From Pyrinomonadaceae bacterium (lineage in GTDB: Bacteria > Acidobacteriota > Blastocatellia > Pyrinomonadales > Pyrinomonadaceae), in the NCBI GenBank assembly GCA_022843305.1, contig JALHNX010000025.1:1-41004 (forward strand): 41,004 nucleotides of DNA, in the 5' to 3' direction. Shown here one piece after another: positions 14,526 through 27,755 of this stretch. Below the pieces are notes generated by a model. That model saw nothing but the letters and a program-made list of their open reading frames with translations. It did not search any database and was not told where the DNA came from. Each line of letters starts with the position of its first letter. Within the stretch, counting starts at the first letter, position 1. The translations under genes and the position numbers were made by a program.

Positions 14526-15723
14526 TAATATCAGCCGCTAAAACATCCGCGAGTTCGGCGAAAGATTTCTCTTCGTTATAATTTTCCTCGACGTGTTTTT
14601 GCGCGTTTCGCCCGAATTCCCGCCATTTTGCGCGTTCCTGCCACGCTTGTTCGAGCTTTTCGCCGATGTCGGAAACGTCCGTCGTTTTGGCAAGCCAGCC
14701 CGTTTCATTTTCGACGATCAATTCGGGAATTCCGCCGATCGGAGTTCCGAGCGCGGGTCTCGCGCAAGCCATCGCTTCAATCATAGCAAACGGAGTTCCT
14801 TCCGCTAAAGAAGGCATTAAAAGCACGTCGTTGCGGGCGATTTCCGCCAAAACCTCTCTGGTATGCGGCAAAATTTTGATCTTTTCGCGGTTTAAACCGT
14901 AAAACCCGAGCATTTTTTCGAGGTAAAACTTGCCGAATCCGTCAATCCCGATAAACGTCAGCCGCCAATCGCGTCTTTTCCAAACGTCTTGCGCCAGTGA
15001 TTCAAGTAACAAATACTGCGCCTTGTCAACGGGCGAATATCTGCCCAAATTAAAAAACCTTGCCGTTTCGCTTGTTCCGACGGGTGCGCTTTCGCCGATT
15101 TTTTTTGCTTCCGCAATTTTTTCAGCCGTCAGCGCGTTGACCGAATGAAAAGCATTTTCGAGTTTTCGCCCGATCGCGCGTTCAAGCGAAAAACGATTTT
15201 TTTTCGAGATGAAAATAAACCTTTTTGCCGACGCGGCAACATCCGTAACCGTTTCGATTTCCCTTTCCGAGTTGAGAAAAAAATTATCTGCGCCGTGCTG
15301 TAAGATCAGCCAATACGGGATTTGCAGATTTTTACAGAGGCGCGTAGCGTAAAGCAATTCGCGCAGATCGGCAAGCGCGGCGACGTTAAACCAGACCAAA
15401 TCCGGCTTTTCTTCGGCAATTTTGTCGAACCACGGCAAGGTTCGCGTATCTTTTTTCCCGAAAGTATCAGCCAGACGATAAAAATTGCGCCGCGCGAAAT
15501 CAACGTTAAAATGCTTGTAAAAATCCGCTGTTATTCCGCTTTCAGCAATCATTCCCGCCTTTTCCCGCGTCGCCGGACTGTCGGCTAGAACAAGCCGGAA
15601 ATCGAAACGCGAATTTACCCGCGCATCTCTGACGAAATCGAACCAGAAGGTTTCCGAACCCGCCCAGAATGGATACGGGTTAAGGGTGCTGAACAGCAGA
15701 ATTTTTTTCTTATGTTTTTGCAT
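14518..15723 (-). CDS. GT4-family glycosyltransferase (GT-B fold)
   Basis: The 401-residue protein starts KILLFSTLNPYPFWAGSETF, a frequent GT4 N-terminus. KPDLVWFNVAALADLREL lies mid N-terminal domain. The C-terminal domain includes FNLGRYSPVDKAQYLLLESL, and the signature EGTPFAMIEAMACARP carries the E-x7-E pair. It is directly adjacent to the FkbM gene (0-base gap) and overlaps the GT2 gene by 8 bases, consistent with one polycistronic message. The linkage formed is unknown. Confidence 0.9.
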   Translation of the reverse strand: MQKHKKKILLFSTLNPYPFWAGSETFWFDFVRDARVNSRFDFRLVLADSPATREKAGMIAESGITADFYKHFNVDFARRNFYRLADTFGKKDTRTLPWFDKIAEEKPDLVWFNVAALADLRELLYATRLCKNLQIPYWLILQHGADNFFLNSEREIETVTDVAASAKRFIFISKKNRFSLERAIGRKLENAFHSVNALTAEKIAEAKKIGESAPVGTSETARFFNLGRYSPVDKAQYLLLESLAQDVWKRRDWRLTFIGIDGFGKFYLEKMLGFYGLNREKIKILPHTREVLAEIARNDVLLMPSLAEGTPFAMIEAMACARPALGTPIGGIPELIVENETGWLAKTTDVSDIGEKLEQAWQERAKWREFGRNAQKHVEENYNEEKSFAELADVLAADINE

Positions 15724-22356: not shown

Positions 22357-22578
22357 TCAGAATTGGACGGTTTCATATTTATCCAACGCTTTTTCAAATT
22401 CCTTTGGAGCTTCGGCAATTTTCAGATTTTGAAAATCTTTTTCCGGCATAAATTCTTTCAGAATCGGCAAACATTCATCCGGATCGTTTTTTCGAGCGCC
22501 GAACTTTTCGCCTGCTAATAATCGGATGATTTTTCCTTGTTTTAATAAATTTACCGCCTTATTTTCAATGATTCTCAC
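22357..22578 (-). CDS. Small hypothetical protein downstream of the third thiC 3'-end copy
   Basis: A 73-codon frame starts at GTG (22578) and overlaps the stop of the degenerate thiC 3' end (22565-22567), so it could be translated by coupling. A longer frame reaching 22629 is rejected as the start because its first part reads the thiC remnant out of frame. The product is charged and probably helical (IRLLAGEKFGARKNDPDE, LKEFMPEKDFQNLKIAEA), with no signal peptide or membrane segment. I do not recognise it. It may be the gene that originally followed thiC, or a fragment. Confidence 0.4.
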   Translation of the reverse strand: MRIIENKAVNLLKQGKIIRLLAGEKFGARKNDPDECLPILKEFMPEKDFQNLKIAEAPKEFEKALDKYETVQF

Positions 22579-22651
22579 CCGCGCCTTGAGGTTTATTGCC
22601 GTGATAGATTTCCGCGCCCGTTGCGACAAATTCTTTCGCCTTTTCAGCCAT
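22565..22651 (-). pseudogene. thiC 3'-end remnant, copy C (28 codons plus stop)
   Basis: Read on the minus strand, this segment encodes [19 protein letters not shown] followed by KPQGAGENH and a TGA stop. It matches the C-terminal 28 residues of the intact ThiC at 25668-27644 at 20 of 28 positions, in frame and with the stop in the same place. Upstream of its ATG the similarity stops abruptly. It has no start signal of its own and is read as a residual 3' end left by an insertion into or next to an ancestral thiC. Confidence 0.75.
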
Positions 22652-22815
22652 TCATATATTCGTCTTATATTCGTCTGATTTCAGTTGAGCCGACTTTGAT
22701 TGCTTCTTACTTTCTTAAAATCTTCTCCATTGACTTACCTTTTGCCAATTCATCAATCAGCTTATCTAAATTCGGACAGATTGGAGTGATAAACCTACAA
22801 CTGCTTTATGAATTG

Positions 22816-22998
22816 CCGTCTGCTTTAGCTGACGGATTCAGGAATAAAATTGATGCGGTTTTAGCCAAAATAATAAAAATAATCAATCATCCTTACAGCT
22901 TCAGCTAAAGCAAAAAGGAAAATTATTTTATCTGATATTCGGCTGAAGCCTTTTTGTCTTGACCTTGTTTTCCGTCAGCTAAAGCAGAACCTTCCAAT
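22816..22998. repeat. REP-like repeat units left of the Y1 transposase, and the noncoding stretch 22652-23053
   Basis: Two palindromic motifs recur: GGCTAAAGCC and CCGTCAGCTAAAGCAGACGG, normally 21-23 bases apart. One unit is in inverted orientation (CCGTCTGCTTTAGCTGACGG at 22816-22835 with GGTTTTAGCC at 22858-22867). One is direct (GGCTGAAGCC at 22941-22950, then a partial CCGTCAGC motif from 22972). The direct unit is preceded by a shared leader from about 22880. Between 22652 and 22815 the minus strand has only a 28-residue C-terminal scrap (ending LAKGKSMEKILRK) with no start. No gene is supported in 22652-23053. Confidence 0.65.
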
Positions 22999-23053
22999 TC
23001 ATTTAAAACCAAATTCATTCGTAAATTTTCAATCAAAAATCTCAATTAAAAAA

Positions 23054-23497
23054 TCAATCATTCTTGTCTTCAAATCTCTGAAAACCTGCTCTTTTCAAAA
23101 AGTTTTCAAACTCCTCATCAAAACTTTTCTCTTTATGATGAGTTTCTTGATTCTTGATGTAATCCCGAACATTATCAACGACATTTTCGCTCACCGACAC
23201 GACGAAATAATCATCCTGCCAAGCGAATTTTTCTTTGCAAAGTCCGGTTTTGTTAATCCAAAACGACGATTCGCCTTTTATCAACTGCATTATTTTTTCG
23301 ATTGTCTGATCCGAACCCGGAGAAATCAAACAATGAGCGTGTTCGACATAGCCGTTGATAAAATCAATAAAAATCCCTTTTTCACGGGCATTTTCCCGAA
23401 TATGCTGAAAAACCTTTTGCCTGATGTCATCGGTCAGAAAAGGCTTTCTGTCTTTTGTTGACCAAACAAAATGCAGCCAAACTTTGATGTATGACAT
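23054..23497 (-). CDS. tnpA: IS200/IS605-family Y1 (HUH) transposase, REP-associated type
   Basis: The 147-residue protein has the size and motifs of a Y1 transposase: an N-terminal KVWLHFVWSTKDRKPFL, the HUH metal motif in GYVEHAHCLISPG (His-Ala-His), IMQLIKGESSFWINK, and the C-terminal helix VVDNVRDYIKNQETHH, whose Tyr in DYIKNQ is the expected nucleophile. The family cuts and rejoins single-stranded DNA at hairpins. Copies of a palindromic repeat lie on both sides, as for REP-associated transposases (RAYTs). All catalytic residues appear present, so it may be active. No TnpB is nearby. Confidence 0.9.
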   Translation of the reverse strand: MSYIKVWLHFVWSTKDRKPFLTDDIRQKVFQHIRENAREKGIFIDFINGYVEHAHCLISPGSDQTIEKIMQLIKGESSFWINKTGLCKEKFAWQDDYFVVSVSENVVDNVRDYIKNQETHHKEKSFDEEFENFLKRAGFQRFEDKND

Positions 23498-23504
23498 AGT
23501 TTTT

Positions 23505-24030
23505 ATTTAGGCTAAAGCAAAAAGGAATTTCTTTTTTGTTATTCGGCTAAAGCCTCTCCTTTATTCTTCATCTTTCCGTCAGCTAAAGCAGACGGCAACT
23601 CATATTTTTCCATCACAATTCACATTTTTTCAATCGTCCGCTTTAACAACAGACAAACATATTAACTTTAATCTGCTTTATGAATTGCCATCTTGCTTTA
23701 GCTGACAAATTTTCTTTTATGAATTGCTGTCTGCTCAAGCTGACAAAACTAATCTTATGAATTGCATCTTGCTTTATGAATTGCTATTTTGCTTTATGAA
23801 TTGCCGTCTGCTTTATGAATTGCCGTCTGCTTTATGAATTGCCGTCTGCTTTATGTTTAGGAACTGTAATTGCAATAATAACAGGCTTTAGCCGAAAACA
23901 AATAAAATATCAATCATCCTTTTCGCTTGAGCTAAAGCTGTCAGGAATTTGATTTATTCTTTTTGAATTCGGCTAAAGCCTTGTCTATCTTGACCTTTTC
24001 AATCCGTCAGCTAAAGCAGACGGCAATTCA
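23505..24030. repeat. REP-like repeat units right of the Y1 transposase
   Basis: The units seen on the left recur: GGCTAAAGCC at 23545-23554 with CCGTCAGCTAAAGCAGACGG at 23576-23595, and GGCTAAAGCC at 23971-23980 with the same 20-mer at 24004-24023. An inverted GGCTTTAGCC is at 23884-23893. The second unit has the leader ATCAATCATCC near 23912, shared with the left-hand unit near 22883, so a repeat of about 110 bp is present as direct copies around the transposase. The stretch 23498-24054 holds no gene, only these repeats and the tandem array at 23756-23855. Confidence 0.65.
23756..23855. repeat. Tandem array of a 19-bp unit, five copies
   Basis: The unit TATGAATTGCCGTCTGCTT occurs perfectly at 23795-23813, 23814-23832 and 23833-23851. 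Diverged copies precede it at 23756-23774 and 23775-23794 (20 bases), and a partial TATG follows. The unit is a piece of the REP-like repeat (GAATTGCCGTCTGC is the complement of GCAGACGGCAATTC), so the array arose by local amplification of that end. There are no spacers. Confidence 0.85.
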
Positions 24031-24054
24031 TATTTTTCCAATCACTTCGACAAT

Positions 24055-24150
24055 TTATTGATGTTCTTTCGCCCCGTCCGGCAGATTTCCGTGATAAATT
24101 TCGCCGCCCGTCGCCACAAATCCCTTCACCTTCTCAGCCATTCCGACTGC
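24055..24150 (-). pseudogene. thiC 3'-end remnant, copy B (31 codons plus stop)
   Basis: On the minus strand this encodes AVGMAEKVKGFVATGGEIYH then GNLPDGAKEHQ and TAA. From the shared Met it is 87 bases long, like the true thiC end, and differs at 17 of 87 bases (20 of 28 residues identical). The last part is identical to thiC over 25 bases (24059-24083 against 25672-25696). Similarity begins exactly at the Ala-Val-Gly before the Met and stops upstream of it. It lies 36 bases downstream of the HEPN gene, in the place a restored thiC end would occupy. Confidence 0.78.
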
Positions 24151-24185
24151 ATTTTTTCTACCTTCTGGACAAAAATAAAATTGGG

Positions 24186-25652
24186 CTAAGTTGAAATCAA
24201 TTTTCTGTTGTTTTCTTGCTCTTGATGAGCTATTAGATTTCGAGAAAGGAAATCTTTATTTACATAAGACTTTGATAAATCCCACTCAAAATAAGCAAGT
24301 AATAATCTTTCGAGAGTCCACTGCAAATGCTGTGTTGCAACAAATAAAGCACTAAATTTATAATCTGCAAATTCGTCGCCGTGAACAATTTTGTTACGAA
24401 TAGTTGTTAATGACCAATTATTGCCTCCTCCAGTTATACCCCAAAGATCGCTTAAATCTACCTTGTAATAATCGCAATGCTTATTAAATGCGTAGGAAAA
24501 AGAAATTCTTTCAAGTGAAGATAGATTTTCATAAACAAGTTTTCTTTTCTCTGTTTTTTCCTTACCTGCAAGCAAATTTTGTTCTTTTAACCATTTCTGC
24601 ATTTTTTTCTTAGTTTCTTTCCACTCTTTTGCCTCATCTTCTTGAGAAAAAATAAACTCTAAATTGTTTTGACGACGGAATAACAACACCAGAGTTTCCA
24701 AAGAAGAAAATAAACTCGTAAATCTTGCTTCGGCTGTGAGTCCTTTATGCGGCAAAACTCCACGAATTGAATCTCTTAATAGGTCAATAAATGTTTCATT
24801 GACAAATTTACTGTAAGCCTGTTGTAAAAAATCCTCGTAATGCTGTGGTTCAATTAGTCCATCATCAACATAATATGTAGATTTTGAATCTGGAATGGAG
24901 ATATTTCCTCGATAAAATCTGGTATGACCTATCGAATCAAATACCTCCCATCCAATACAGACGCTACGTTGTCTTGATGCAAATGATGAAAGAAGTAAGA
25001 AATCATCAAGTTGACGTAAAAGTTTATCATCTATTTTTTCACTTCCTTTTGGGTCATTCCACAAATTAGTTTCTGCAACTAAATAACTTGTGGTTACAGT
25101 GTCTCCAACTTCATTTTTACGATGCTTATAGTGCTTTTGAAAATTCAAAAACAGATCGTTTGATAAAGAAAATGATTTAGTTCTAACAGATTCAACTTTT
25201 ACTTCACCTGTGTAAGAACTTGAAATTATCTGAGCCGGAGTTAAGACAATACTTGGAGTTATCCAAAAACGACATTCTGTAGGAGAAATCTCTCGATTAA
25301 GTATATGTTCAATTCTTAAATCAGTAGGTTCGGCTTCCCAAATAGATTCTAATAAATTTATTCCGTATGCCTTTGAAGTCATGCCTAGAGAATAAACATT
25401 ATCTGCACTAATGCGTAGCAAAGTTTCATCCAATTCTTTCCTTTCCGCTAAAATTGAAAATTTCCAAAATTTATTGAAAGCACGTTCTATAAAAAGTGCT
25501 TGTTCGGAAGAAGGAAGTAGGATAATTAAAACTCGATCTTTCGGTTTTTCGGGTAAAAAAACCTTACATCTAAGTTTTTCAATTTTTATCTCATCTTCAC
25601 CTGTTATAGTTGCTTCGAGTTGATAATCTTCTTTTCTATCGGTCGCAATCAT
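24186..25652 (-). CDS. ApeA-like HEPN-domain protein, candidate anti-phage defence RNase
   Basis: The 488-residue protein has an N-terminal beta-rich region (about 1-290) resembling the ApeA N-terminal domain in size and position. An all-helical C-terminal domain (about 300-470) follows, with RFTSLFSSLETLVLLF at its first helix and TTIRNKIVHGDEF near its end. Arg419-Asn-x3-His424 is the R-x4-6-H motif of HEPN ribonucleases. ApeA-type proteins protect against phages, probably by cleaving RNA. The gene is strikingly A/T-rich next to thiC and uses AT-ending codons, indicating transfer. It sits alone, without a partner antitoxin, between two thiC 3' ends. The HEPN motif is seen directly; the ApeA assignment is from pattern recognition. 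Confidence 0.7.
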   Translation of the reverse strand: MIATDRKEDYQLEATITGEDEIKIEKLRCKVFLPEKPKDRVLIILLPSSEQALFIERAFNKFWKFSILAERKELDETLLRISADNVYSLGMTSKAYGINLLESIWEAEPTDLRIEHILNREISPTECRFWITPSIVLTPAQIISSSYTGEVKVESVRTKSFSLSNDLFLNFQKHYKHRKNEVGDTVTTSYLVAETNLWNDPKGSEKIDDKLLRQLDDFLLLSSFASRQRSVCIGWEVFDSIGHTRFYRGNISIPDSKSTYYVDDGLIEPQHYEDFLQQAYSKFVNETFIDLLRDSIRGVLPHKGLTAEARFTSLFSSLETLVLLFRRQNNLEFIFSQEDEAKEWKETKKKMQKWLKEQNLLAGKEKTEKRKLVYENLSSLERISFSYAFNKHCDYYKVDLSDLWGITGGGNNWSLTTIRNKIVHGDEFADYKFSALFVATQHLQWTLERLLLAYFEWDLSKSYVNKDFLSRNLIAHQEQENNRKLIST

Positions 25653-25667
25653 TATTAAAAATTTAGG

Positions 25668-27737
<2,070 letters not shown>

Positions 27738-27755
27738 AACTTCGACTCTATATGT

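Follow-up and report, generated by a model that had tools for sequence, protein, structure and literature searches.

Strings of displaced gene ends are known from two bacterial systems. At rhs loci, new DNA takes over the 3′ end of the gene and the old end is shunted downstream, giving one-orientation strings of displaced ends with cargo between them, and homologous recombination with circular intermediates has been proposed (Jackson, 2009; PMC2935791). In Vibrio cholerae, arrays of orphan T6SS immunity genes show sequential displacement in which effector 3′ ends are shifted back, an integron-like order without an integrase for which homology-facilitated illegitimate recombination has been proposed (Kirchberger, 2017; PMC5361080). 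Integrons themselves stack small cassettes, the newest beside a fixed expressed gene, and Arr-type genes are among their cargo. On the protein side, the Apea-like HEPN family (PF18739) has been described (Anantharaman, 2013; PMC3710099), and ApeA has been named as a defence system (PMC10952713).

The locus described here lies in a 41,004-nucleotide stretch of DNA from a Pyrinomonadaceae bacterium of the Acidobacteriota (GCA_022843305.1, contig JALHNX010000025.1, positions 1 to 41,004; hereafter the window) and shares traits with all three kinds of array. As in the rhs and T6SS arrays, displaced 3′ ends stand in tandem on one strand downstream of an intact gene, and as in integrons, small cassettes are stacked with the newest next to the fixed gene and with Arr-type cargo. 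In contrast to rhs, however, the target is thiC, a housekeeping gene, the cargo is unrelated to it, and the displaced ends look like equivalent alleles, mostly of 80–105 nt, rather than alternative toxin tips. In V. cholerae the cargo consists of immunity genes belonging to the displaced effectors, whereas the thiC arrays hold any accessory gene behind a metabolic gene. Unlike integrons, they have neither attC sites nor an adjacent IntI, their repeats are gene 3′ ends, and it is the gene end itself that appears to be exchanged.

Stacked cassettes behind thiC

Three thiC 3′ ends stand in line within the window, the real one at 25668–25763 and two others at 24055–24150 and 22565–22653, and there are therefore two stacked inserts. 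From the riboswitch onwards, the features are:

27636–27744, minus strand: TPP riboswitch aptamer ahead of thiC (Rfam RF00059, 67.9 bits, gathering score 54.3)
25668–27644, minus strand: intact thiC (phosphomethylpyrimidine synthase), its last ~100 nt (25668–25763) being the current tail
24151–25667, minus strand: cassette 1, the HEPN gene and 35 nt past its stop, the newest insert by position
24186–25652, minus strand: ApeA-like HEPN gene, 488 aa (HEPN region about residues 269–458, with R419/H424 and E319)
24055–24150, minus strand: displaced thiC tail 2 (AVGMAEKVKGFVATGGEIYHGNLPDGAKEHQ, then stop), which closes cassette 1
22654–24054, minus strand: cassette 2, a Y1/REP-type transposase gene with REP-like palindromes
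23054–23497, minus strand: IS200-like/REP-associated tyrosine transposase, 147 aa, the cargo of cassette 2 (PF01797, E=1.7e-27; NF033573, 4e-18)
22565–22653, minus strand: displaced thiC tail 3, the oldest by position

The HEPN gene is an unbroken ORF of 488 aa that starts at 25652. An earlier, sequence-only reading of this DNA had its two ends exactly right and its strand had to be corrected to minus; a plus-strand reading of the interval is ruled out by 44 stops. That reading had also rightly seen the gene as A/T-rich relative to thiC, GC being about 32–37% in segments of the HEPN gene against 50–54% across most of thiC. Its picture of a single cargo gene between two thiC ends is correct in that the gene is flanked by thiC 3′ ends, but understates a locus with three ends and two inserts (the HEPN gene and the IS200-like/REP-type transposase), in which the HEPN gene makes up one cassette of a stack, and such arrays recur across the class. 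The palindromes of cassette 2 are REP-like (CCGTCAGCTAAAGCAGACGGCAATTCATA and relatives), and a transposase 89% identical to the one encoded there sits in an array of another genome (G056; L050, 5734).

The HEPN gene is co-oriented with thiC, and no terminator was called between the two. A cassette beginning only 15 nt behind the thiC stop could share the thiC transcript and so come under the TPP riboswitch; we infer that the HEPN gene may be co-transcribed with thiC, and hence that thiamine would control a putative defence gene.

The HEPN protein and its probable role

From its motif, the conservation of that motif and a remote profile match, the protein is predicted to be an Apea-like HEPN ribonuclease. 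It contains R419-N-K-I-V-H424, an Rx4-6H motif with a polar residue after the arginine that the sequence-only reading had already picked out, and R419, H424 and E319 are invariant across an alignment of six homologues, down to 17% identity. HEPN_Apea is its sole Pfam match, sub-threshold at E=0.16 and 12.8 bits (gathering cut-off 24.4), and the same profile (PF18739) matches three of the six homologues, at best with E=1e-4. The invariant motif together with these homologue matches therefore points to a C-terminal HEPN domain of the Apea kind, as had been proposed. In the AlphaFold model the N-terminal half is weak and the helices of the C-terminal half are moderately confident (307–328, 415–424 and 433–454, mostly pLDDT 65–91). 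R419 and H424 lie where one helix ends and the loop before the long helix begins, and the motif is therefore not broken up; E319 is the conserved acid in the helix ahead of it (307–328). The catalytic motif of HEPN proteins is known from this same position, at a helix end and loop start before a long helix (PMC3710099), and with model and literature in agreement the HEPN assignment holds. A fold search with the weak model gave no match at E≤0.001, and a sequence search of the PDB gave nothing useful.

How close does the protein come to ApeA? Both have a C-terminal HEPN domain with R-N-x3-H, a conserved acid upstream and a large N-terminal domain with predicted strands. For ApeA itself we looked for an N-terminal domain of ~300 aa made mostly of beta strands; in the window protein, strands are predicted at low confidence in the N-terminal ~265 aa, which no known family matches, and Pfam gave no N-terminal match at E up to 10. 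The profile searches thus bore out the HEPN half of the earlier proposal, if remotely, and not its ApeA half: PADLOC defence models matched the window protein with no family at E up to 10, and its homologues with weak non-ApeA matches only. The protein further differs from ApeA in its sub-threshold profile score, and its gene in standing outside a restriction-modification operon. With an N-terminal domain that belongs to no family, membership in ApeA proper is not proven.

Homologues are rare, occurring in G009, G036 and G043 among 119 genomes of the order, with a more distant relative in the same phylum (G373) and another in a Calditrichota MAG; none was found in viral contigs or in plasmids. 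The homologue of G036 (C186; L003, 1489–2325) is N-terminally shortened and starts 4 nt past an ORF that by eye resembles a menaquinone-pathway radical SAM gene. In the Calditrichota MAG (L056, 647–3770), two more R-x4-H genes precede the HEPN homologue, one with a sub-threshold DUF4145 match and the other with a sub-threshold AbiU2/integron-HEPN match, and the locus is a possible HEPN cluster. The neighbour of the G009 homologue is an HNH gene. These neighbours are mildly suggestive of a defence setting. Defence-type genes are a minority of the cargo in related arrays.

We regard the gene as probably encoding an anti-phage RNase of the ApeA type, defence being, by analogy, the most likely role of the protein. 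It would most likely act alone as a defence effector, with the N-terminal ~265 aa as the sensor of infection and a HEPN part, probably dimeric, that would cleave RNA and so halt phage growth. The earlier suggestion of a one-gene abortive-infection system may fit this picture, although sister arrays carry mixed cargo with few defence-type genes. Toxin-antitoxin systems often contain HEPN domains (PMC3710099), direct evidence for defence is absent and PADLOC was negative, so that the protein might instead be a toxin paired with an antitoxin, or an enzyme of housekeeping RNA processing. We nonetheless think such a role unlikely, as the cassette holds no partner gene, the large N-terminal domain is nearer to the ApeA layout than to a small toxin, and occurrence in 4 of 119 genomes of the order and in one Calditrichota is too patchy for a housekeeping enzyme.

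Tail arrays across the class and beyond thiC

When the 563 kb that follow 58 thiC genes of the order were scanned with an HMM of the ThiC tail, 31 copies in 15 loci came up on the thiC strand and 0 on the opposite strand, far more than chance would give. Many relatives also show thiC-tail repeats with a 44-aa ThiC tail query, and there are indications of the pattern in two further families of the class (G492, G507, G510); thiC-tail cassette arrays occur in many Acidobacteriota. The cassettes between tails hold mostly one to three genes, mostly in thiC orientation. Their cargo is mixed and includes a KilA-N protein (PDC-S22), a DNA methylase, Arr-domain, DUF2200 and SnoaL-like proteins, a glyoxalase, IS200/REP-type transposases and proteins with signal-peptide-like starts, defence-type genes being few. 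Identical kinds of cargo turn up again in other genomes, chiefly from different genera, at 60–90% identity, and in some cases have other flanks. Ectopic thiC-tail copies lie away from intact thiC at L037 7108–8470 (G029:C33), in G080:C25, in G045:C7 and in G073:C35 and C56, as though an array or a cassette had been relocated. At the thiC end of L048 (G066:C15), seemingly two tails share one reading frame (SEIYHSADGATESDHHERRSYGNIADGNVPSGAKQDH), perhaps a frame-preserving displacement.

Tail repeats are not exclusive to thiC, and the same arrangement was seen at lysS, mdh, a deoxyhypusine-synthase-like gene and a DUF4386-like cargo gene (the names lysS, malate dehydrogenase and deoxyhypusine-synthase-like being read from translations). 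The tails at the first three are similar in length to those of thiC. The lysS 3′ end is repeated in G041 (C4, 27486–30332), past 640 bp of inserted DNA with a single lipoprotein-like gene. The mdh gene of the window's own genome (G000:C19, L200; 10826–11758) has its 3′ end again at 15302–15379, 3.5 kb downstream and behind three cargo genes. Behind the deoxyhypusine-synthase-like gene, tail repeats occur in several genomes of one genus (L064 5328–11406 in G073:C45; also G066, G045, G071, G065, G078 and G048); in G073 this gene adjoins an integron integrase with attC-like sites. In a control of gene ends over four sets (about 1.64 Mb, 1,240 genes), clean repeats were otherwise rare, at 1 of 284 genes in G041, 0 of 335 in G067 and one plus thiC among 348 in G000, while G373 gave a few loose matches, about 60% identical and in both directions. 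Gene starts showed almost no same-strand repeat pattern in the same sets. The gene thiC is thus a hot spot, not the sole site, of tail repeats.

Proposed displacement of gene ends and its alternatives

How do such arrays arise? We consider it somewhat more likely than not, taking locus and protein together, that an Apea-like HEPN RNase, likely a stand-alone defence effector, was brought in by displacement of the thiC 3′ end. Incoming foreign DNA, consisting of a thiC 3′ end and the HEPN gene, would have recombined with the resident thiC, which would gain the foreign tail while its own, cut about 80–105 nt before the stop, would be shifted behind the new gene. The transposase cassette would have entered likewise at an earlier event, and repeated events would build an integron-like array, newest beside thiC, without integron parts. 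The recombination step may combine homologous recombination within thiC on one side with short-homology or end-joining on the other, and cassettes may later be exchanged through the tail repeats.

The order of events can be seen in two relatives: in G052 a KilA-N cassette follows thiC directly, and in G079 it lies one place further, separated from thiC by an extra tail and a small HTH-like cassette. This nesting reflects insertion beside thiC with older material pushed away. The tails look like natural ThiC alleles rather than decayed copies, and insertion thus seems to give the gene a foreign 3′ end and push its old one downstream. For the window thiC this is suggestive, the current tail being 86% identical to that of another genus (G033) against 70–80% to congeners, with no such pattern in the displaced tails. 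It is clear in one lysS case, G041, where the displaced copy has the family-typical C-terminus and the intact gene an odd end, RPESK; the new end thus most likely came with the incoming DNA. When thiC genes of neighbours were compared to locate the left crossover, none of the genomes formed a near-identical pair differing by an insert. In the literature covered, with subscription journals mostly outside its scope and absence therefore weak evidence, thiC was not found as an island insertion site.

Tail starts fall 79–105 nt before the stop in 27 of 41 copies, scattering over about 25 nt and trailing to over 200 nt with no single point, and an exact single crossover is unsupported. Plain illegitimate recombination does not predict so narrow a zone, which counts against the displacement proposed here; a single-site recombinase predicts one point and random joining a broad spread. 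A dedicated site-specific recombinase acting in trans on the ~80–105 nt gene tail as its attachment site, which would make these real mobile cassettes of a new integron-like system, would account for the narrow zone, the reading frame restored at each event, the newest-first order, the small thiC-oriented cassettes and the similar tails at lysS, mdh and the deoxyhypusine-synthase-like gene. We think this improbable, given the spread of breakpoints, the unrelated target sequences and the lack of such an enzyme in the cassettes or nearby: no tyrosine recombinase was found among 66 cargo ORFs or in the 12 kb downstream of 58 thiC genes.

We reject an integron in the usual sense, no attC and no nearby IntI having been found at the arrays. 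IntI might still have built the arrays by using thiC tails as unusual folded attC-like sites, since it scores above cut-off in 35 of 119 genomes of the order, the tail length falls in the attC range and Arr-domain proteins recall integron cargo; two such genes, both above the TIGR02249 cut-off, lie in the window's own genome (G000:C254:118–1056 and G000:C66:1784–2719). This is very unlikely, however: the arrays lack the RYYYAAC/GTTRRRY site pair, exchange, unlike that at attC, falls at the tail's 5′ boundary and replaces the gene end, and G007, G033, G064, G067 and G070 have arrays, some of the largest among them, and no IntI above cut-off. A simple attC scan, which found none at several other IntI loci, gave 0 in the window and 18 array loci and 3 in the integron region of L064. 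Assembly errors, or tandem copies of thiC that have decayed, are a highly improbable source of the tails; many genomes are indeed fragmented into hundreds of contigs and at least some are MAGs, but the arrays also lie mid-contig in genomes of 7–20 contigs (G067, G007, G041), the copies differ as ThiC alleles do, the opposite strand has none, and N-terminal ends yield almost no same-strand pattern.

A bolder and doubtful reading is a dedicated gene-capture system of this class, trans-acting or integrase-less, that would use the last ~100 nt of core genes, thiC foremost, as landing sites, keep the core gene intact by the tail swap, and place captured genes, including defence genes, under a core promoter and the TPP riboswitch. 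What sets the breakpoint 80–105 nt before the stop is a question that can be tested. If gene-end displacement is correct, the repeated gene ends would offer a ready search handle for cassettes and a rich place to look for new defence genes in a little-studied phylum, and accessory genes, including those for defence and drug modification, would be gathered behind core metabolic genes, at their 3′ ends, in the order of an integron but with no integron present.
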